From Acididesulfobacillus acetoxydans (lineage in GTDB: Bacteria > Bacillota > Desulfitobacteriia > Desulfitobacteriales > Desulfitobacteriaceae), in contig NZ_LR746496.1 of assembly GCF_902729405.1 (NCBI RefSeq), forward strand, positions 3,906,001 through 3,970,000: a stretch of DNA of 64,000 nucleotides. Reading direction: 5' to 3'. The notes under the pieces were generated by a model. That model saw only the letters and a list, made by a program, of their open reading frames with translations, had not been told where the DNA came from and searched no databases. How positions within the stretch are numbered: position 1 is the stretch's first letter; each line of letters opens with the position of its first letter. The translations under genes and the position numbers were made by a program. Below, one piece after another: positions 52,597 to 63,201 of this stretch.

Positions 52597-54540
52597 TCAG
52601 GGAAAAAGGCTGACGAAACTCAATTTATCCCCGTCGACCAGGCCCCGGTCCGTGAGTTTGAGATGGGGGATTACAGGCAAGGAAAGAAAAGCCAGAGTCA
52701 TAAACGGATCAACCCCCTCCCTCACGCCCAGTTCACGGGCCCGAATATGCATCTCCTCCAGGATGGACACGACCTTATCGGCCGGCTCCCGGCTCATCAA
52801 ACCGGCCAAAGGAAGGGGCAGGTGACCCAAGACCCTGCCCCCGGCCGTTAAACAGAGACCGCCCTGCGCAGCCACCACAGTACTGACAGCCAATTCCATG
52901 TCCTCGTCGTTCATCCCGGCCACTACCAGGTTGTGCGAATCATGGGCGACAGTGGAAGCCAGGGCCCCCCGGGCGAGCCCGAACCCCTGGACAAATCCCA
53001 GGCCGGTACGTCCGCTCGCTTGATGGCGTTCAAGAACTGCCAATTTGGCGACATCCTGACTCACATCCGGGAGAACCAGGCCGGCCCGAACCGGTAAATC
53101 CAGGCAGAGATGATCCGTCACCAGAGAATGAGGCTTGACCCCAATGACCCGCACCGCGACCGTTTCCCCGGCCTTACAGGAGCGGCCTCCCCTCCGCAGC
53201 GTCTCTGTCGCGCTTCCCCGCGGCACCCGCGGACAGCGGATCTGCAGCCTTTCCCGGCTCCATTTTCCCAGATGAACTGTATCGCTCAGATCAGTTTCTC
53301 CCCGACTCAAATTCTGCCCGGTGACCTGTCTGCCGTCTTTTGAGGGGTTCACGCCGGCCCAAGCTGCCGCACCCACCGACAAGACAGGTCTTGACCATGC
53401 AGCCGCCTCTGCCGAAAAAGCTGCCCCAAGCCCTTCTTGCCGGCTTTTTCCCCGCCAGAAGACATCGTCGATGACAAACTCCTCCAGATCGCTGAGAATG
53501 ACACAATCCGCCTGGAACCCGGGAGCAACCGCCCCTAAATGCTCCAAACCCAGAGCCCGCGCCGGATTGATCGTCGCCATCTGTACGGCCTGTAGAGGCT
53601 CCACCCCGGCTTTAACCGCCAGGCGAATCAAATGATCGATACTCCCCTCGCGCCAAAGATCCAGAGGATTGCGGTCATCCGTGACCAACAGGCAGCGGTT
53701 GGAATTGATCGGATTGACCGCCGGCAGCAGGTCAAGCAAATTACGGGCGGCACTCCCTTCCCTCAACATCAGGAAAAATCCCCTGCGCAAGCGCTCCCTG
53801 GCCTCCTCAGGGGTCGAACACTCATGTTCGGTCCCGATGCCCGCCAAATAATAGGCGTTGAGGTCCTGCGCCCGGATCCCCGGCGCGTGCCCGTCTCTCA
53901 GACGCAGCGGAAGCTCAAGTTTGCGCACCAAATCTTCTTTTCCTGCCAGGACGCCGGGATAGTCCATCACCTCGCCCAACCCGATCACGCGGGGGTCATC
54001 CGTTAAGGCCGCCAAATCCCCGGCCGTCAGCCGGGCCCCTGAAGTCTCCAACTCAGTGGCCGGCACGCAGGAAGGCAGAGCCACAAACCCGTTAAAGGGC
54101 AAGCGGGCCAAACGATCCAGAATATAGCGGATCCCGGCCAGACCCGCCACATTGGCAACCTCGTGCGGATCCACCAAGGCAGTCGTTACCCCGTGCGCCA
54201 CGAGGAGGGCACAAAACTCCTCCGGGCAGAGATGGGAACTCTCAATGTGCACATGCCCGTCGATCAAGCCCGGGACCACGTAGTGCCCCGCCAGATCCCG
54301 GACCTCCCGAGCTTGACGGTACTCCCCCGTGCCGACAAAAAAGCCGTCCTGAATCCCGATGTCCGTCTCATAAATTTCCCCGGAAAGGACGTTCACCAAA
54401 CGGGCGCGGTGCAAAACCAGGTCAATAGGCTCGAGACCCCGGGCCTGCCTCATTTTTTCCCGCCGGGATACCTTCTTCTGCCCTGCCCCCTCAATCTTTG
54501 TCCCTTCCGTTCTTATTCCTTCGGCTGGCCACGGTTTCAT
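52597..54540 (-). CDS. ade: Adenine deaminase
   Basis: A 647-residue adenine deaminase of the amidohydrolase superfamily (Ade type, not Add). Metal-site motifs DGHVHIESSHLCPEEF and DPHEVANVAG, then GEVMDYPGV, GHAPGIRAQDLNAYYLAGI and VTDDRNP are visible; the C-terminal domain contains VAHDSHNLVVAGMNDEDM. It converts adenine to hypoxanthine and ammonia, feeding xanthine dehydrogenase. An N-terminal extension of about 30 residues is charged; the first ATG (54540) has a good GGGG ribosome site, whereas the ATG at codon 30 is an alternative. A lineage-typical insert lies near residues 400-460. Confidence 0.94.
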   Translation of the reverse strand: MKPWPAEGIRTEGTKIEGAGQKKVSRREKMRQARGLEPIDLVLHRARLVNVLSGEIYETDIGIQDGFFVGTGEYRQAREVRDLAGHYVVPGLIDGHVHIESSHLCPEEFCALLVAHGVTTALVDPHEVANVAGLAGIRYILDRLARLPFNGFVALPSCVPATELETSGARLTAGDLAALTDDPRVIGLGEVMDYPGVLAGKEDLVRKLELPLRLRDGHAPGIRAQDLNAYYLAGIGTEHECSTPEEARERLRRGFFLMLREGSAARNLLDLLPAVNPINSNRCLLVTDDRNPLDLWREGSIDHLIRLAVKAGVEPLQAVQMATINPARALGLEHLGAVAPGFQADCVILSDLEEFVIDDVFWRGKSRQEGLGAAFSAEAAAWSRPVLSVGAAAWAGVNPSKDGRQVTGQNLSRGETDLSDTVHLGKWSRERLQIRCPRVPRGSATETLRRGGRSCKAGETVAVRVIGVKPHSLVTDHLCLDLPVRAGLVLPDVSQDVAKLAVLERHQASGRTGLGFVQGFGLARGALASTVAHDSHNLVVAGMNDEDMELAVSTVVAAQGGLCLTAGGRVLGHLPLPLAGLMSREPADKVVSILEEMHIRARELGVREGVDPFMTLAFLSLPVIPHLKLTDRGLVDGDKLSFVSLFP

Positions 54541-54726: not shown

Positions 54727-56058
54727 TCAACCCAGCCCCGTCCGCTTCAAGACTCGCTTCAGACTCTCGGTTGCACTTTTCTTCACATCGTTCACGTCCA
54801 GACTTAAGAGGCGCCTGTCCTCCATGAGAATACGCCCGTCGACCATCGTCAGGCGCACATCGGCCGCAGTAGCCTGATACACCAATTGCGAATAGACGTC
54901 CACCCCTTCCATGGGCCAAGTGTGAAGCCCCTGCAGGCTGACAACCGCCAAATCCGCCTTCTTACCCGCTTCCAGGCTGCCCAGGTCTTTTTCCCGGCCC
55001 AGCGCCCGCGCCCCCGCCAGAGTCGCCAGCTCAAAGACTTTGGCGGCCGGCATGGAGGTGGGGCCATGCAGAGGTTTCTGAATCAGGGCCGCATGGCGCA
55101 TTTCTCTGAACCCGTCCAGGTTATTGTTGCAGGGGGCTCCGTCCGCTCCCAAAGAGACCTCTGCTCCGCGTGCCAGAAGTTCCGGCACCGGGGCCACTCC
55201 GGACGCCAACTTCAAATTGGAGGACGGACAATGGACGATCTTTGTTCGGCTCTCTGCCAGGATCTGCTTTTCCGCTTCGTCCAGCCACACGCAATGAGCC
55301 AGCAAGGAGCGGGGACCGGTCAAACCCAACTTTTCCAGGAAAACCACGTTGCGTTCACCCCGGGTCCTCTCCACCAACTCAATCTCACCCCGGTTTTCCG
55401 AAGCGTGGGTATGAACGAGAGCCTGTTTTGCCTCCGCCAGGCGCGAGACTTCCTTAAGGAGTTCATCCGTGCAAGAAACCACAAAACGCGGAGTATAGGC
55501 CACCTCCAACCGCCCCTCACCGCTGCCGTGATATTTTTCCCACAGATCTGTGCTTTCTTGCAGAGACGCCGCCGTGGACTCTTTCAACCCGGCGGGAATA
55601 TCCGGATCCGGCAAATCCATCATACATTTGCCCGACACGGCCCTCATCCCGCTCTCCAGGATGGCCCGGAAGGCTTCTTCGGTATGATGCACCGTTTCCA
55701 TGTCGACAATCGCGGTCGTACCGCCCAGCAGGAGTTCCCCCAGCCCCAAACGGGCCGAATCATAGAGAGACCCGGCATCATGCCCTGCTTCCAAAGGCCA
55801 GATTTTGTTTCTCAACCAGTCCAGCAGTTCCAAATCATCCGCCTGACCGCGGAACAATACCTGACAAAGGTGGACATGCGTCTGGATAAGCCCCGGAATG
55901 ACCAGATCTCCTTTCAGGTCAATCGTCCGGTCGGCCGTCTCCCCCAGAGCGGGCCCCAGAGCCGCAATCGTCGTCCCTTCAACCAGCAGATCCCCCTGAA
56001 AAACCGCCCGCTGGGCGTTCATCGTGACAATAGTTCCGTTCTTTAAAAGAATACGCAT
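54727..56058 (-). CDS. 5'-Deoxyadenosine deaminase-type amidohydrolase
   Basis: A 443-residue amidohydrolase of the SAH/MTA/5'-deoxyadenosine deaminase family. Metal ligands sit in THVHLCQVLFRG, HTHASENRGEIELVE, LAHCVWLDEAEK and SLGADGAPCNNNLDGF. Segment DDLELLDWLRNKIWPLEAGH is typical of clostridial 5'-deoxyadenosine deaminases, which act on the by-product of radical-SAM enzymes; activity on methylthioadenosine, SAH or guanine cannot be ruled out. The ATG follows GAAGAAGGG. Placed between ade and the purine permease, it would send nucleoside-derived purines into the same hypoxanthine pool. Confidence 0.82.
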   Translation of the reverse strand: MRILLKNGTIVTMNAQRAVFQGDLLVEGTTIAALGPALGETADRTIDLKGDLVIPGLIQTHVHLCQVLFRGQADDLELLDWLRNKIWPLEAGHDAGSLYDSARLGLGELLLGGTTAIVDMETVHHTEEAFRAILESGMRAVSGKCMMDLPDPDIPAGLKESTAASLQESTDLWEKYHGSGEGRLEVAYTPRFVVSCTDELLKEVSRLAEAKQALVHTHASENRGEIELVERTRGERNVVFLEKLGLTGPRSLLAHCVWLDEAEKQILAESRTKIVHCPSSNLKLASGVAPVPELLARGAEVSLGADGAPCNNNLDGFREMRHAALIQKPLHGPTSMPAAKVFELATLAGARALGREKDLGSLEAGKKADLAVVSLQGLHTWPMEGVDVYSQLVYQATAADVRLTMVDGRILMEDRRLLSLDVNDVKKSATESLKRVLKRTGLG

Positions 56059-56426: not shown

Positions 56427-57764
56427 CTAACCCAGGACAAAATGGAGAATAAACAGAATCGTCAAGACATAGGTGACCGCATTGTTTTCTTTGTACCTTC
56501 CCGTGACCAGCTTGATGATCGTATATGACATGAAACCGAAGGCCAGGCCTTGAGCGATGGAGTACGTAAGGGGCATCATGATGATGGTCAGAAAAGCCGG
56601 CAGCGCTTCCGTAAAATCGTCAAAGCGCACATGGACCACTTCACCCATCATCAGCGTTCCCACCAGAATGAGCACAGGCGCGGTGGCCACGGACGGGACC
56701 AGACCGACCAAGGGCGCAAAAACGATGGCCACGATGAAGAGAATGGCCACAACCACAGCCGTCAGGCCGCTCTTGCCCCCTTCGGCCACGCCGGAGGTGC
56801 TCTCGATGTAGGACGTCACCGTCGGTGTCCCCATGATCGAACCAAACATGGTGCCGATAGAATCGGCCATCAGGGCCCGGCCGGCCCGGGGCAGGTTGCC
56901 CTGGTCATCGAGTAAGCCCGCTTTGCGCGACACCCCCAGCAGAGTACCGATATTATCGAACATGTCTACAAAAGTAAAGGCGAACAGAATAGAAATCAAA
57001 CCGTAATCAAAAGCCCCTACGATATTCAGGTGCATGAAGATGGGAGTAACTGAAGCAAACGGATTCGTCGGGGCGATGAAGCTGGAGATGCCCGTCGGTG
57101 CCGGGGCCACTCTGAAGATCATGGCGATGACACTCGTGATTAACATTCCCAGCAAAAGGCCTCCTTTAATCCTCTTGGCCATAAAAAAACCCGTAATGAT
57201 TAAGCCAAGGGCCGCTACCAGCACGGAGGGGGATTTCATGTTGCCCAAAGCCACAATCGTGTCTTTGTTGGCCACGATAATGCCGGCATTTTGCAATCCG
57301 ATAAAAGCGATAAAGAGGCCAATCCCGACTCCGATGGAGTAGCGCAGGACCTCAGGCACCCCGGCGATAATCCATTCCCGAACTTTAGTTACGGTAAGAA
57401 GGAAGAAAACCAAGCCGGAAATGAACACCGCGCCCAAGGCTGTCTGCCAGGGAAGGTGCATGCCGATGACCACCGAGTACGTAAAAAAGGCGTTAAGGCC
57501 CATGCCCGGAGCCATGGCGATAGGGTAATTGGCGTAGAAGCCCATAATCAGAGTGGCAAAAGCCGAGGAAATCGCGGTCGCCGCAAAAGTGGCCGCAACC
57601 GGCATCCCGGCGGCTTTGAGAATATTGGGATTGACAAAGAGGATATAAGCCATCGTGACAAAAGTCGTCACTCCTGCCAGGACTTCTGTCTTGACATTGG
57701 TATGCAGTTCATCCAGGTGAAAGATGCGGTTCAGCAAACCGCCGGAACTTTGGTTAACCGACAT
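56427..57764 (-). CDS. NCS2-family purine (guanine/hypoxanthine) permease, AzgA type
   Basis: A 445-residue membrane transporter with 12-14 predicted helices. MAYILFVNPNILKAAGMP, ANYPIAMAPGMGLNAFFTYS, FTFVDMFDNIGTLLGVSRKA and GTPTVTSYIESTSGVAEGGK are signatures of the AzgA branch, which imports hypoxanthine, guanine or adenine with protons. The ATG follows AAAAAGGAGGG. The gene lies directly after the xdh genes and probably supplies their substrate. The leader contains three tandem 21-base repeats (57787-57849). Confidence 0.92.
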   Translation of the reverse strand: MSVNQSSGGLLNRIFHLDELHTNVKTEVLAGVTTFVTMAYILFVNPNILKAAGMPVAATFAATAISSAFATLIMGFYANYPIAMAPGMGLNAFFTYSVVIGMHLPWQTALGAVFISGLVFFLLTVTKVREWIIAGVPEVLRYSIGVGIGLFIAFIGLQNAGIIVANKDTIVALGNMKSPSVLVAALGLIITGFFMAKRIKGGLLLGMLITSVIAMIFRVAPAPTGISSFIAPTNPFASVTPIFMHLNIVGAFDYGLISILFAFTFVDMFDNIGTLLGVSRKAGLLDDQGNLPRAGRALMADSIGTMFGSIMGTPTVTSYIESTSGVAEGGKSGLTAVVVAILFIVAIVFAPLVGLVPSVATAPVLILVGTLMMGEVVHVRFDDFTEALPAFLTIIMMPLTYSIAQGLAFGFMSYTIIKLVTGRYKENNAVTYVLTILFILHFVLG

Positions 57765-57983: not shown

Positions 57984-58979
57984 TCAAGTCTTGCTTGGCC
58001 CGGCCAAGGCGGCCAATATCTTTTCCGGCGTCGCCGGCAAGGAGGTAATCCTCACCCCGACGGCGTCATCAATCGCGTTCACTATGGCCGCGATCGTAGG
58101 TAACATGGCCGGCTCGCCCAGCCCCTTGGCGCCGTACGGCCCGGTTTCCTCCGGCTCCTCCACAAGAATAGCATGGATCTCAGGCGTATCCAAAACCGTG
58201 GGAATCAAATATTGGGAAAGAGACGGATTCTTAATCTGGCCTTCGCTTAACTGCACCTCTTCCAGGAGGGCAAACCCCACTCCCTGGGCTATCCCTCCAG
58301 CAATTTGCCCCTCGGCTTGCAGGGGATTAATCGCCTTTCCCAGGTCATGCGCGGCCACCACCTTAAGCACTCGCACGTTTCCCGTCTCCGTATCCACTTC
58401 GACCTCAGCCACCTGACAACCGAAGGCATAGGGCCAATACGGAGACCCTTGCCCTGTTTCCGGGTTGACCCGGGTTGTACGGGCTGTATAACTTTCGGAA
58501 CCCAGAAAGCGTTCGCCGTCCAAACGGGCCTGGCTCACCACTTCGGCTAAGGGCAAGGAACGTGCCGGTTCCCCTTTGACGCGCACCCGATGGTCTTTAA
58601 GTTCAATTCCGTCCGCGCTTGTACAGTGTAAAGCCCGGGCGGCGTAAGCCAAGAGGCCGGCCTTGGCTTGGGTCACCGCCTTAATCACGGCATTTCCGGT
58701 ATTATAGGTGTGCCGGGTGGCCGCCGAGGTTCCGGAATCAGGTGTTGTATCCGTATCTCCGCTGATCACTGTCACCTCATCCGCATCGATCCCCAGTTCC
58801 TCGGCCGCGATCTGAGCGAAGATCGTGCTGCTTCCCTGCCCCACGTCAATCGCGCCCGTGAGCACGCTCACCGAGCCGTCGTCATGAATCTCGACAAAAG
58901 CGCTGGACACGTCGGGGAAACCGTTCCCGTACCCCGTCCCGTACCAGGCACAACCCAGCCCTCGGCCCCGTTTTTTCAT
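57984..58979 (-). CDS. Xanthine dehydrogenase molybdenum-binding subunit, C-terminal half
   Basis: A 331-residue protein equal to the second half of XdhA/XdhD-type molybdopterin subunits. TGAIDVGQGSSTIFAQIAAE is cofactor binding; VVAAHDLGKAINPLQAEGQI and GPYGAKGLGEPAMLPTIAAI contain the catalytic glutamate in GLGEP. The ATG (58977-58979) overlaps the stop of the first half as ATGA and follows GGAGAGGTGA. In most organisms both halves are one chain of about 750 residues. The two lie in different reading frames with a dedicated ribosome site, so they are two genes or a recent frameshift. Confidence 0.88.
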   Translation of the reverse strand: MKKRGRGLGCAWYGTGYGNGFPDVSSAFVEIHDDGSVSVLTGAIDVGQGSSTIFAQIAAEELGIDADEVTVISGDTDTTPDSGTSAATRHTYNTGNAVIKAVTQAKAGLLAYAARALHCTSADGIELKDHRVRVKGEPARSLPLAEVVSQARLDGERFLGSESYTARTTRVNPETGQGSPYWPYAFGCQVAEVEVDTETGNVRVLKVVAAHDLGKAINPLQAEGQIAGGIAQGVGFALLEEVQLSEGQIKNPSLSQYLIPTVLDTPEIHAILVEEPEETGPYGAKGLGEPAMLPTIAAIVNAIDDAVGVRITSLPATPEKILAALAGPSKT

Positions 58980-60253
58980 CGCCCGCTCACCTCTCCAAGA
59001 TAGGATTTGACCGCTTTCAGACACTCTTCCATACCCACACTTCCGCTCAGAACCTGACCTGTCGCGGTTTCGCTCCCCGCCCGGTAGATATTCCTCAGCC
59101 GCACTTCCCAAGGACTTAACCCCAGCTCACGAGCCAGCAGATCCATTTGGCTCTCATAGGCCAAAACGGGCTGGGCCGCTCCGAACCCGCGCATTGCCCC
59201 CGTATAAGGGTTGTTCGTCAACACGGCATAAGCATCTACCCGCACGTGGGGAATCTCGTAGGGACCGGTGGCGTGAATGGCAGCCTTGCGCAAGATGTTG
59301 GGACTCCAGGACGCATAGGCACCGGCATCCCCGACAATCCGAGCTTCCATGACGGTCAGCTTTCCGGCCCGGGTCGCCCCCGTCTTGTAGTGCATCCTCA
59401 TGGGATGGCGCTTGCTGTGGGAATAGAAAGACTCTTCGCGCGTATTTTCCATTTTCACCGGGCGCTGGGTGTGCCAAGCCATGAGAGCCGCCATGATTTG
59501 CAGAGAAATATCTTCCCGGCCTCCGAAAGCTCCCCCCACACTCCGGGTCCTGACCCGGACCTGATTGAACTTCAGCCCCAGGGCATGGGCAATCTCCCCC
59601 CGGTCATAATGGGCGTACTGGGTGGCAACTTCAACGACCAGGTGGCCCCGCTCATCGACGTAAGCGAGCACCGCCTCCGGCTGGAGAAAAGCGTGATCCA
59701 GCATCTGAGTTTGATAGTCCCTCTCCACCGTCACTTCCGCCTCGGCCCAGCCTTTGGCTGTGTCGCCTTTATAAACCGGGAGATGATACACGATATTGCT
59801 GCCGCCGTGGATTTCCGGATGCAGAGCCGGAGCCTCCTCCTTCATCGCCTCTTCCGGGTCAAACAGCCCCGGCAGAACCTCGTAATCGACCTCGACCCGC
59901 CCGGCGGCCGCCCGGGCCTGAGCCGGTGTTTCGGCCCCGACCAGGACCACCGGATCCCCGGCCATCCGGACGTGGTCTGCCACCAAAACCGGTTGATCCC
60001 GGTAAAGCACGCCGTGTCCGTTGTGGGGAACATCGGCTGAGGTCAGAACTGCAACCACTCCTTCAGCTTTCCGCGCCTCATCCAGCCTGAGTCCGCGTAT
60101 CCGGGCATGGGCATGGGGGCTGCGCACAGCTACAGCGTAAATCTGCCCCTCCCGCCTTACATCTGCCGGAAAAGCAGCCTGACCTAAAACTTTTCCCCAG
60201 GCATCCTCCCGCAGCACGCGTCCGCCAACCGTTCCGCCAATCACATCGTTCAT
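58976..60253 (-). CDS. Xanthine dehydrogenase molybdenum-binding subunit, N-terminal half
   Basis: A 425-residue protein. The N-terminal hammerhead domain (GGRVLREDAWGKVLGQAAFP, VAVRSPHAHARIRGL) is followed by the first molybdopterin-binding region (QTQMLDHAFLQPEAVLAYV, RSVGGAFGGREDISLQIMAA, NNPYTGAMRGFGAAQPVLAY). It ends at a TGA just after the helix ECLKAVKSYLGEVSGR, where single-chain homologues continue. The GFGA loop is intact, suggesting a functional fold when paired with the next gene. The ATG overlaps the 2Fe-2S subunit gene by four bases. Confidence 0.92.
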   Translation of the reverse strand: MNDVIGGTVGGRVLREDAWGKVLGQAAFPADVRREGQIYAVAVRSPHAHARIRGLRLDEARKAEGVVAVLTSADVPHNGHGVLYRDQPVLVADHVRMAGDPVVLVGAETPAQARAAAGRVEVDYEVLPGLFDPEEAMKEEAPALHPEIHGGSNIVYHLPVYKGDTAKGWAEAEVTVERDYQTQMLDHAFLQPEAVLAYVDERGHLVVEVATQYAHYDRGEIAHALGLKFNQVRVRTRSVGGAFGGREDISLQIMAALMAWHTQRPVKMENTREESFYSHSKRHPMRMHYKTGATRAGKLTVMEARIVGDAGAYASWSPNILRKAAIHATGPYEIPHVRVDAYAVLTNNPYTGAMRGFGAAQPVLAYESQMDLLARELGLSPWEVRLRNIYRAGSETATGQVLSGSVGMEECLKAVKSYLGEVSGR

Positions 60254-60714
60254 TGTTCCACCTCCCCGGCCGCGCGTTCCACTGCCTTCAGGATCCGGTC
60301 ATACCCGGTACAGCGGCAGAGGTTGCCGGACATGGCCACCGCTATTTCCTCTTTACCCGGGTGTGGGTTCCGGTCCAGCAGAGCCTTAGCCGACAAAACC
60401 ATACCCGGCGTGCAGAAACCGCACTGTACCGCACCTTCCTCCAAGAAAGCCTTCTGCACCGGATGCAGGGAACCCCGCTTTCCCAAGCCCTCGATGGTCG
60501 TCACCGCGTGCCCGTCGGCCTGACCCGCCAGGACCATACAGGAATTGACAGTCTTACCATCCATGATCACAGTACAAGCTCCACATTCACCCTCACCGCA
60601 GCCTTCCTTAGTCCCCGTCAAATGCAGGCGCTCGCGCAAAATATCGAGCAGACGCTCCTCGGGCTCCACCTCCAACCTCCTATCCACACCGTTTACCTTG
60701 AGTTCAATCTTCAT
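60250..60714 (-). CDS. Xanthine dehydrogenase [2Fe-2S] subunit
   Basis: A 154-residue protein with two 2Fe-2S centres: plant-ferredoxin-type GCGEGECGACTVIMDGKTVN-SC and four-helix-type QCGFCTPGMV with GNLCRCTGY. It passes electrons from the molybdenum centre to FAD. The start is the ATG at 60712-60714 (after GGGAAGGGG), overlapping the FAD-subunit gene by 11 bases. The length is usual for XdhC-type small subunits of bacterial enzymes. Confidence 0.94.
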   Translation of the reverse strand: MKIELKVNGVDRRLEVEPEERLLDILRERLHLTGTKEGCGEGECGACTVIMDGKTVNSCMVLAGQADGHAVTTIEGLGKRGSLHPVQKAFLEEGAVQCGFCTPGMVLSAKALLDRNPHPGKEEIAVAMSGNLCRCTGYDRILKAVERAAGEVEQ

Positions 60715-61585
60715 TTCCCCTTCCCCCCTTTCGGTCAACGTCCGCGTGTTCCCCGGATGTTACAAACTCCATCGTTCTCAATGCTTCCCTGACCACACCG
60801 GCGACCGCTTCTTTCTTATAGGGAGCGGAGGCTCTTTCCCCTAAGGCCCGGCTTATGACCTTCTTGGCCTGACGACAGGCCAGCTCTGTGAAACCGCGGT
60901 CCAAAACCAACCCATTCAGTTCCTCTGCCAGATCCAGACTGAGAAAAGCCCGCTTCCCCGCTGCCCCAAACGCCACTCGGACTCCACAGGCCCTCCCGTT
61001 TTCCTCCCGCAAAGCGACTGCCGCGCTCAAACGGGCAATGGCTAAAGCCTGACGCCGGCCGAGCTTGGCAAAGCCGCTCACTCCGGCCCGCAAAGGCAGG
61101 CGAAATCCCGCCAGTAAAGTCCCCGGCTGCCAGAGCGGTGTCCTCCCCAACACCTCGGCGAGCGGCAGCAGAACTTCACCCGAGCGACTCAGCAAGCGCA
61201 CCTGGGCCTGCAAGACCAGAAGGGCGGGCAGGCTGTCAGCCGCCGGCGAACAATTGGCTAAATTCCCTCCTAAAGTCGCCTGGTTGCGAATCTGCGGTGC
61301 GCCCATGCTGCTGCAGGCCAGCCAAAGGGCACGGGCCTCTTGCGCTGCCGTATCGTTATTGAGTAAATCTGCGAAGCTGACCATAGCCCCAATCTCCAGC
61401 CAGTCACCCCCTGCCCGGATCTGCCGCAATTCCGCGACGGCCTGCAAGTCAACTAACCCCCTCGCCTGAACCTCCCGACGCCGCAGCTTCAGGATCAGAT
61501 CCGTACCCCCGGCCAGGTAGAGCATACCCGGTTCTTCCCCTGCCTCTAAAGCTTTGGCAAGCGTTTGCGGACGAATATAATACAT
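60704..61585 (-). CDS. Xanthine dehydrogenase FAD-binding subunit
   Basis: A 293-residue subunit of the CO dehydrogenase/xanthine dehydrogenase FAD family: YLAGGTDLILKLR and QATLGGNLANCSPAADSLPA are flavin-binding motifs. A 4Fe-4S insert of the anaerobic type is not evident. It is the first structural gene after the purine riboswitch leader (61586-61990). The ATG follows GGAGGTGGAG. Confidence 0.93.
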   Translation of the reverse strand: MYYIRPQTLAKALEAGEEPGMLYLAGGTDLILKLRRREVQARGLVDLQAVAELRQIRAGGDWLEIGAMVSFADLLNNDTAAQEARALWLACSSMGAPQIRNQATLGGNLANCSPAADSLPALLVLQAQVRLLSRSGEVLLPLAEVLGRTPLWQPGTLLAGFRLPLRAGVSGFAKLGRRQALAIARLSAAVALREENGRACGVRVAFGAAGKRAFLSLDLAEELNGLVLDRGFTELACRQAKKVISRALGERASAPYKKEAVAGVVREALRTMEFVTSGEHADVDRKGGRGNED

Positions 61586-61827: not shown

Positions 61828-61856
61828 GGTCATCCGGTAACAAAAAACGGATGACC
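61828..61856 (-). promoter_or_regulatory. Expression platform of the purine riboswitch
   Basis: On the minus strand GGTCATCCG (61848-61856) is followed by TTTTTT (61842-61847) and then by CGGATGACC (61828-61836). An identical CGGATGACC lies in the aptamer (61904-61912). Pairing with the aptamer copy gives a stem directly followed by the T-run (a terminator); pairing with the distal copy puts the T-run in the loop (no termination). This predicts an ON switch. Confidence 0.8.
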
Positions 61857-61884
61857 GTCGCCGACACCAAAGGGAAATACACCC

Positions 61885-61949
61885 CTCATAGTCAGACGAT
61901 TTTGGTCATCCGGTAGAAACTTTTGGACCTATCTCCAAAAATATATGAG
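61885..61949 (-). ncRNA. Purine riboswitch aptamer (guanine/hypoxanthine class)
   Basis: A 65-nt minus-strand element with all purine-aptamer hallmarks: P1 CTCATA/TATGAG, P2 TTTTGGA/TCCAAAA, the J2/3 core GTTTCTACC (61912-61920), P3 GGATGA/TCGTCT, and J3/1 GACTATGAG. L2 ends in GG and L3 begins CC, matching the kissing-loop pairs of known aptamers; both loops are one base short. The specificity base (C74 of the xpt aptamer) is C at 61891, which predicts guanine, hypoxanthine or xanthine rather than adenine. The first downstream gene is the FAD subunit of xanthine dehydrogenase. Confidence 0.95.
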
Positions 61950-62009
61950 TTGAAACAACACCCTTATTCAGTTGTATCTATATTTATATTCTCTGTATTA
62001 TTATTTATA

Positions 62010-62090: not shown

Positions 62091-62423
62091 TTACTCCCCG
62101 ACCTTCCCCGACCCGGATACCGTCTCAATAAACACCTCCATAACCCCGCCGCAAACCATCCCATCTGCCTCCGCTAGCTCGTGCGTCAGCTCGACCCGGG
62201 CAGTTCGCGGCTGCCGTGTTCTTAGAACTTCCCAGGCCGTACGCCTGGCCTCCGCCTCCCCGCAGCCGCCCCCGATCGTCCCGACCGACCGCCCGTCCCT
62301 GTAAAAGAGGACCTGGGCTCCCGCCTTGCGCGGAGTGGAACCGCGGGTCGAAATCACCGTGACCAAGGCCGCCTCCTCGCCCGCTGTTAAATCGAGAATG
62401 GCCCGCGTTACCTTATGGTCCAC
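62091..62423 (-). CDS. XdhC-family protein, N-terminal (CoxI-like) domain
   Basis: A 110-residue protein: AALVTVISTRGSTPRKAGAQ, GTIGGGCGEAEARRTAWEVL and the VCGGVMEVFIE end match the XdhC/CoxI N-terminal domain. XdhC binds molybdenum cofactor and inserts its sulfurated form into xanthine dehydrogenase. In this locus it is separate from the Rossmann domain encoded just upstream, with an 11-base overlap. The GTG at 62421-62423 has a GGGGG site within the upstream gene. Confidence 0.88.
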   Translation of the reverse strand: MDHKVTRAILDLTAGEEAALVTVISTRGSTPRKAGAQVLFYRDGRSVGTIGGGCGEAEARRTAWEVLRTRQPRTARVELTHELAEADGMVCGGVMEVFIETVSGSGKVGE

Positions 62424-63201
62424 CCTGCACACCCCCTGACTGAGCTTTTAGCCCGCTGCTCCGGCCGTAGTATTTGACCATGACGATTTCCGCCACAATG
62501 CTAACCGCTATTTCTTCGGGAGTTTGTGCCCCTATATCCAAACCGATAGGAGCCTGCACGCTGTCCAGCAGGGCGGGGGAAATGCCCTCCGCTCTCAGTT
62601 CATCGAGCACGGCTTTGACTTTGCGGCGGCTCCCGATCATTCCGGTGTAAGCCGGCTGTTCCTCACTCTCGAGGACTTTGGCCAGGCAGTCCTTGTCATG
62701 ACGATGCCCGCGGGTCACAATGACCGCAAAAGTGCTGCCGTCGGGAGCGTACTCTTCAATGGCCTTGCCAAACTCGTCACAAATAACCCTATCCGCTGCG
62801 GGGAACCGGGTCGTCGAAGCAAAGGCCGGCCGGTCATCGACCACCGTAACTTCAAAGCCGATCATCTTCCCCATTTGTACGAGAGGCAGCGCAATATGCC
62901 CCCCGCCCAAAATGAGCAGGCGCTGGGCCGGAAGGAGCGGATCCAGAAAAATCCCCAGCGGCTCCCCCGCTACTTCCCGCCGGTAAAGCCGGGGGATTCT
63001 CAACCGTAAGACCTCCCGGACCTCTTCGGCCAAATCGGGAAATTCCGGCCAAGCCTGTCCGCCGGCAATCCTTTGCCCGTCTCCGTCAAAAATGAAGCGG
63101 CTGCCGGCGGGATACCGGACGGTGCCCTGGACGATGACAGCCGCCACACCTAATCTCTTCTCTTCGAGATAACGGAGCAGAGTGGAATAATACGCAGTCA
63201 T
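62413..63201 (-). CDS. XdhC-family protein, Rossmann (XdhC_C) domain
   Basis: A 262-residue protein. The C-terminal Rossmann domain has RLLILGGGHIALPLVQMGKM, VDDRPAFASTTRFPAADRVI, VTRGHRHDKDCL and YTGMIGSRRKVKAVLDEL, all XdhC motifs; the N-terminal part is a divergent CoxI-like domain. It matures molybdenum hydroxylases. The ATG follows GGAGAGGAG. The order (Se-type hydroxylase, this gene, CoxI-domain gene) suggests it serves the hydroxylase at the window edge. Confidence 0.9.
   Translation of the reverse strand: MTAYYSTLLRYLEEKRLGVAAVIVQGTVRYPAGSRFIFDGDGQRIAGGQAWPEFPDLAEEVREVLRLRIPRLYRREVAGEPLGIFLDPLLPAQRLLILGGGHIALPLVQMGKMIGFEVTVVDDRPAFASTTRFPAADRVICDEFGKAIEEYAPDGSTFAVIVTRGHRHDKDCLAKVLESEEQPAYTGMIGSRRKVKAVLDELRAEGISPALLDSVQAPIGLDIGAQTPEEIAVSIVAEIVMVKYYGRSSGLKAQSGGVQGGP

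Follow-up and report, generated by a model that had tools for sequence, protein, structure and literature searches.

A guanine-I-type purine aptamer in a predicted transcriptional ON switch for xanthine dehydrogenase genes of Acididesulfobacillus acetoxydans

A purine riboswitch aptamer with a guanine-I-type core precedes the xanthine dehydrogenase (xdh) operon of A. acetoxydans. The anatomy of the leader makes it likely that the element is a transcriptional ON switch in which the 5′ strand of P3 is captured by an intrinsic terminator. We infer the identity of the ligand, the direction of control, and its kinetic character. The leader in the window, the whole stretch of 64,000 nucleotides that was analyzed, joins a known aptamer to an unusual expression platform. 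If the model is correct, a guanine-I aptamer, usually found in OFF switches, has been rewired to turn on purine breakdown by terminator capture of the P3 strand.

The aptamer and its operon

The covariance search with RF00167 that was recommended in the preliminary description of this region returned a full-length match (model positions 1–102) at 61968–61869 on the minus strand. The score of 66.6 bits lies above the curated gathering score of 37, as expected for a purine riboswitch, and the same model search found no other purine aptamer in the 4.52-Mb genome. The aptamer proper spans 61949–61885 (minus strand), and its core and helices are kept, with covariation, in 22 leaders. By hand, P1 (CUCAUA/UAUGAG) was assigned to 61949–61944/61890–61885, P2 (UUUUGGA/UCCAAAA, loop GAUAGG) to 61940–61934/61927–61921, and P3 (CGGAUGA/UCGUCUG, loop CCAAAA) to 61912–61906/61899–61893. 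J2/3 is GUUUCUAC and J3/1 is AC. L2 and L3 each fall 1 nt short of the consensus but retain the GG/CC that forms the kissing contact.

Alignment with the Rfam model places C61891 at the specificity position equivalent to C74, which agrees with the initial assignment to the guanine class and differs from the U that marks adenine riboswitches. Together with U22, U51, and J2/3 and J3/1 of standard length, this nucleotide gives the window aptamer a guanine-I core, in which the one difference, A24 to U, looks neutral. The aptamer sequence carries neither the signature of xanthine-II RNAs (U51G with insertions in J2/3 and J3/1) nor that of guanine-II RNAs (a one-nucleotide J2/3 insertion and a J3/1 insertion with U51 kept). 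Repression by ligand is a usual but not a defining trait of guanine-I switches, and the anatomy of the window leader predicts the opposite.

Downstream of the aptamer lie xdhB-xdhC-xdhA1-xdhA2-permease-amidohydrolase-ade, all on the minus strand, and the same gene order follows the same kind of aptamer across the host's order. The first gene encodes the FAD-binding subunit (xdhB, 60704–61585; Pfam PF00941, PF03450; NCBIfam). It is followed by the 2Fe-2S subunit (xdhC, 60250–60738; PF01799, PF00111) and by the N-terminal (xdhA1, 58976–60253; PF01315, PF02738) and C-terminal (xdhA2, 57984–58979; PF20256) halves of the molybdenum subunit. The remaining genes encode a xanthine/uracil-family permease (56427–57764; PF00860), an amidohydrolase of the 5′-deoxyadenosine deaminase family (54727–56058; NF005557, 666.6 bits versus a cut-off of 522), and adenine deaminase (ade, 52597–54540; TIGR01178, 570 bits versus a cut-off of 472.5). 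The Pfam and NCBIfam assignments bear out the earlier view that the genes behind the switch serve purine catabolism.

The start of xdhA2 overlaps the stop of xdhA1 by 4 nt (ATGA). The split of xdhA (57984–60253, minus strand) is conserved across the order, in the operons behind leaders L032, L034, L036, L045, L052, L060, L063, and L064, and XdhA appears fused behind L033. A frameshift or sequencing error was ruled out, since the split is conserved with its 4-nt overlap. Upstream of the leader, two overlapping open reading frames (62091–63201, minus strand) correspond to an XdhC-type maturation factor, and further upstream is the end of a xanthine dehydrogenase of the selenium-dependent type.

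A terminator that shares a strand with the aptamer

The segment CGGATGACC (61912–61904, minus strand) consists of the P3 5′ strand and the CC of L3. Sequence, complementarity, and covariation suggest that it doubles as the 5′ arm of an intrinsic terminator. The 3′ arm, GGTCATCCG (61856–61848), is its perfect 9-bp complement and is directly followed by six T residues (TTTTTT, 61847–61842). This pairing, proposed in the preliminary description, is confirmed on the minus strand. The sequence and position given there for CGGATGACC hold, but the segment, which covers the 5′ side of P3 and the initial two nucleotides of L3, is better labeled P3-L3 than "J2/3-P3".

The minimum free energy fold of the leader is the terminator, with 61912–61904 paired to 61856–61848, an internally paired loop region, and then the six T residues. 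Folding with and without the aptamer constraint, one of the checks first suggested, gave ensemble energies through the T-run of −29.7 kcal/mol with the aptamer enforced and −42.8 kcal/mol for the terminator. The terminator is therefore ∼13 kcal/mol more stable in a fold model that includes neither ligand nor kissing-loop energy, and for this reason the switch would have to be kinetic. When the aptamer is held closed, nothing stronger than a 5-bp stem (−4.7 kcal/mol) is predicted beside the T-run of the window leader, compared with −32.4 kcal/mol for the P3-based hairpin; the model yields no strong terminator hairpin that is compatible with the folded aptamer.

The terminator and the aptamer are mutually exclusive because both use the P3 5′ strand. 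Given that no strong aptamer-compatible terminator is predicted, ligand binding should prevent termination, in keeping with the ON direction originally proposed. Among 24 ON-type leaders, P3-based hairpins range from −20.5 to −42.4 kcal/mol and aptamer-compatible hairpins from 0 to −8.5 kcal/mol; these values refer to the lowest-energy T-run, which for six leaders (L063, L064, L033, L034, L044, and L065) lies further downstream than the one nearest the arm. The aptamer-independent hairpins of 17 canonical leaders are stronger, ranging from −7.3 to −35.1 kcal/mol.

In the proposed mechanism, the aptamer would be transcribed first and would be able to fold first. It is complete ∼30–40 nt ahead of the competing arm, so the ligand could lock it before that arm emerges. 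A purine bound in time (guanine, or hypoxanthine or xanthine at higher concentration) would keep P3 and the kissing loops closed. In this bound state 61912–61904 would be unavailable, no strong hairpin would precede the T-run, and RNA polymerase would read into xdhB. Without ligand, 61856–61848 would invade P3, pair with 61912–61904, and open the junction, and the resulting long terminator hairpin would end at the T-run. Given the stability of the terminator in the model, the switch could be leaky or could always terminate. A promoter scan gave only weak candidates on the minus strand.

Comparison of related leaders

The relatives compared include Peptococcaceae bacterium CEB3 (same genus), Desulfosporosinus species, and Paradesulfitobacterium ferrireducens. 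Because an XdhB search reached only distant relatives outside the host's order, the wider survey was made with an aptamer model. The comparison of homologous xdh leaders, which had been suggested at the outset, indicates that the P3/terminator architecture is conserved with covariation. The pairing recurs across the order with different sequences and compensatory changes, and it is seen, with weaker support, in a second family of the phylum. The P3 5′ strand reads CCGGATGACC in the window and CEB3, CCGGATAACC in two relatives, CGAGGCAACC in Desulfosporosinus, and CCAGGTGACC in the second family; the corresponding terminator arms are GGTCATCCG, GGTTATCCGG, GGTTGC, and GGTCACCTG. An alignment with the CEB3 leader shows good conservation between P1 and the T-run and divergence beyond it.

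To judge this pairing, P3 strands were swapped between leaders, and after each swap the best arm was selected again. Native pairing scored 16.55 versus 13.69 (of 20) for permuted strands, and 0 of 5000 permutations were as good; with the second family added, the count was 0 of 20,000. The same procedure applied to 43 canonical leaders gave no signal (9.16 native versus 9.29 permuted). In an alignment of 21 leaders, 90% of cells are paired, and six of the 10 pairs show double-sided changes (36 cells in all), a number reached in 0 of 500 shuffles, although these shuffles do not correct for relatedness. Sliding the helix by 1–3 columns lowers pairing to 29%–56%. The arms in this alignment were chosen for complementarity, a bias from which the permutation test is free since it re-chooses them.

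The recurrence of strand sharing with covariation in relatives indicates that it is more than chance. Both the aptamer and the P3-based terminator look selected, because the P3/arm pairing and the aptamer helices each covary. In the second family, leader L172 pairs perfectly and some other leaders are mismatched; those before 2Fe-2S genes have at least one mismatch and give weaker support. Leader L062, which precedes an amidohydrolase gene in the host's order, differs in layout, with a second GATGACC between the aptamer and the T-run and a long stand-alone hairpin, and was left out of the clean support for the ON layout.

Known switches, alternative readings, and related aptamers

The window aptamer resembles guanine-I RNAs of the xpt type (RF00167) in its three-way junction, kissing GG/CC loops, J2/3 GUUUCUACC, and C at the specificity position. 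It differs in that its loops are 1 nt shorter, it controls purine catabolism, the 5′ strand of P3 is captured by its terminator, and it is predicted to be ON rather than OFF. The adenine switch pbuE is a kinetically controlled transcriptional ON switch whose terminator invades the aptamer, and the window model shares these features. However, the specificity nucleotide of pbuE is U and the part lost to its terminator is the aptamer 3′ side (P1 side), whereas the window switch carries C and loses the P3 5′ strand.

Guanine-I switches usually lower expression, whereas guanine-II, xanthine-II, and 2′-dG-III variants are predicted to be ON (PMC9295807). Xanthine-II RNAs, like the window aptamer, precede xanthine dehydrogenase and related genes, and their terminators overlap the aptamer (PMC9295807), but the window aptamer has neither U51G nor inserted nucleotides in J2/3 or J3/1. 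The earlier remark that ON behavior would be unusual therefore stands for a guanine-I core and not for the scaffold, for which ON predictions are in print. Each of the four guanine switches of Clostridioides difficile is an OFF switch, and for one of them a response to xanthine is reported (PMC11477304). The xanthine-I (NMT1) riboswitch is likewise linked to purine oxidation genes, but its fold is unrelated (PMC7373994). The text of the papers searched, mainly open-access ones, yielded no account of ON control by a guanine-I-type switch upstream of xdh genes.

The preliminary description also assigned a role to a second CGGATGACC (61836–61828, minus strand), which would compete for GGTCATCCG with the T-run in its loop and thereby act as an antiterminator. 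The exact 9-mer match, which extends to 12 nt (TACCGGATGACC), and the stable hairpin that this copy forms with 61856–61848 when a longer transcript is folded with the aptamer enforced are in line with such a role. However, the copy lies 3′ of the T-run, and by its coordinates the decision to terminate falls before RNA polymerase has reached it. It also sits in sequence missing from the CEB3 leader, and no downstream counterpart exists in any other leader scanned, although these leaders retain the P3/terminator pairing; in three Desulfosporosinus leaders, a match with one mismatch lies ∼200 nt away. Absence of the two-copy arrangement from relatives had been named as grounds for rejection, and this counts against the second copy but not against the P3 strand. 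We consider antitermination by this copy very improbable; the repeat is probably incidental and plays no part in switching. In read-through mRNA the copy could fold into a hairpin, but no role need be assumed for it. An insertion of a mobile repeat after the terminator was rejected, as the sequence is single copy in this genome.

That the element is an ordinary guanine OFF switch, with ligand favoring termination, is suggested by the behavior of most known guanine-I RNAs (PMC9295807) and by the terminator being the most stable fold, but we regard it as unlikely: the sole strong terminator requires the P3 5′ strand and is incompatible with the aptamer, covariation backs both exclusive structures, and it would make less sense for a purine to shut off purine catabolism. 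About equally doubtful is a degenerate leader whose aptamer no longer switches and whose terminator attenuates constitutively. Shortened L2 and L3 and the ∼13 kcal/mol advantage of the terminator in the model would fit such decay, whereas the conserved, covarying aptamer core and helices of 22 leaders, and a sister genome that retains the leader nearly intact while the flanks diverge, argue for function. A more serious possibility, though still not the favored one, keeps the ON mechanism and makes xanthine or hypoxanthine, not guanine, the physiological inducer. The operon centers on the oxidation of these two purines, guanine-I aptamers discriminate only ∼10-fold against both (PMC9295807), and there is the C. 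difficile guanine-class switch with a reported xanthine response (PMC11477304); against this, the window aptamer has guanine-I junction positions without U51G or the xanthine-II insertions.

Beyond the ON switch predicted for the window, orthologous leaders of Desulfosporosinus (L033–L048, L055–L058) keep the P3-strand platform with an altered core (C54G, G72C, A73U). Their junctions resemble guanine-II, and their ligand preference may have changed. We can only tentatively suggest that P3-capturing ON switches for purine catabolism form a widespread and so far undescribed group, in which the pocket drifts from the guanine-I type (this genome and Paradesulfitobacterium) to the Desulfosporosinus form, possibly with a different inducer. 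If the predicted ON wiring holds, these leaders would provide orthologues whose pocket varies on an unchanged platform, and natural pairs of one pocket with opposite outputs in which the control of direction by the expression platform could be tested.

Several other aptamers were observed in the survey. Two genomes of the genus Desulfosporosinus carry xanthine-II-like aptamers (L065, L066; U51G and junction insertions) upstream of a xanthine dehydrogenase-type gene set unlike that of the window, and there too the terminator pairs with the P3 5′ strand. The second family of the phylum (L161, L163–L168, L172–L181, L190) has several purine aptamers per genome, located before xdh genes or genes for lipoprotein/ABC-type transporters, and in many of them the terminator uses the P3 strand. 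Adenine-type aptamers (L050, L051), whose specificity nucleotide is U, precede adenine deaminase genes in one genus of the host's family, and the hairpin at their T-run apparently involves the 3′ side of P1. Two purine-like aptamers (L059, L061) have a changed J3/1 (A73G); judged by eye, the first long open reading frame after L059 is chemotaxis-type sensor-like and that after L061 is ABC transporter ATPase-like.
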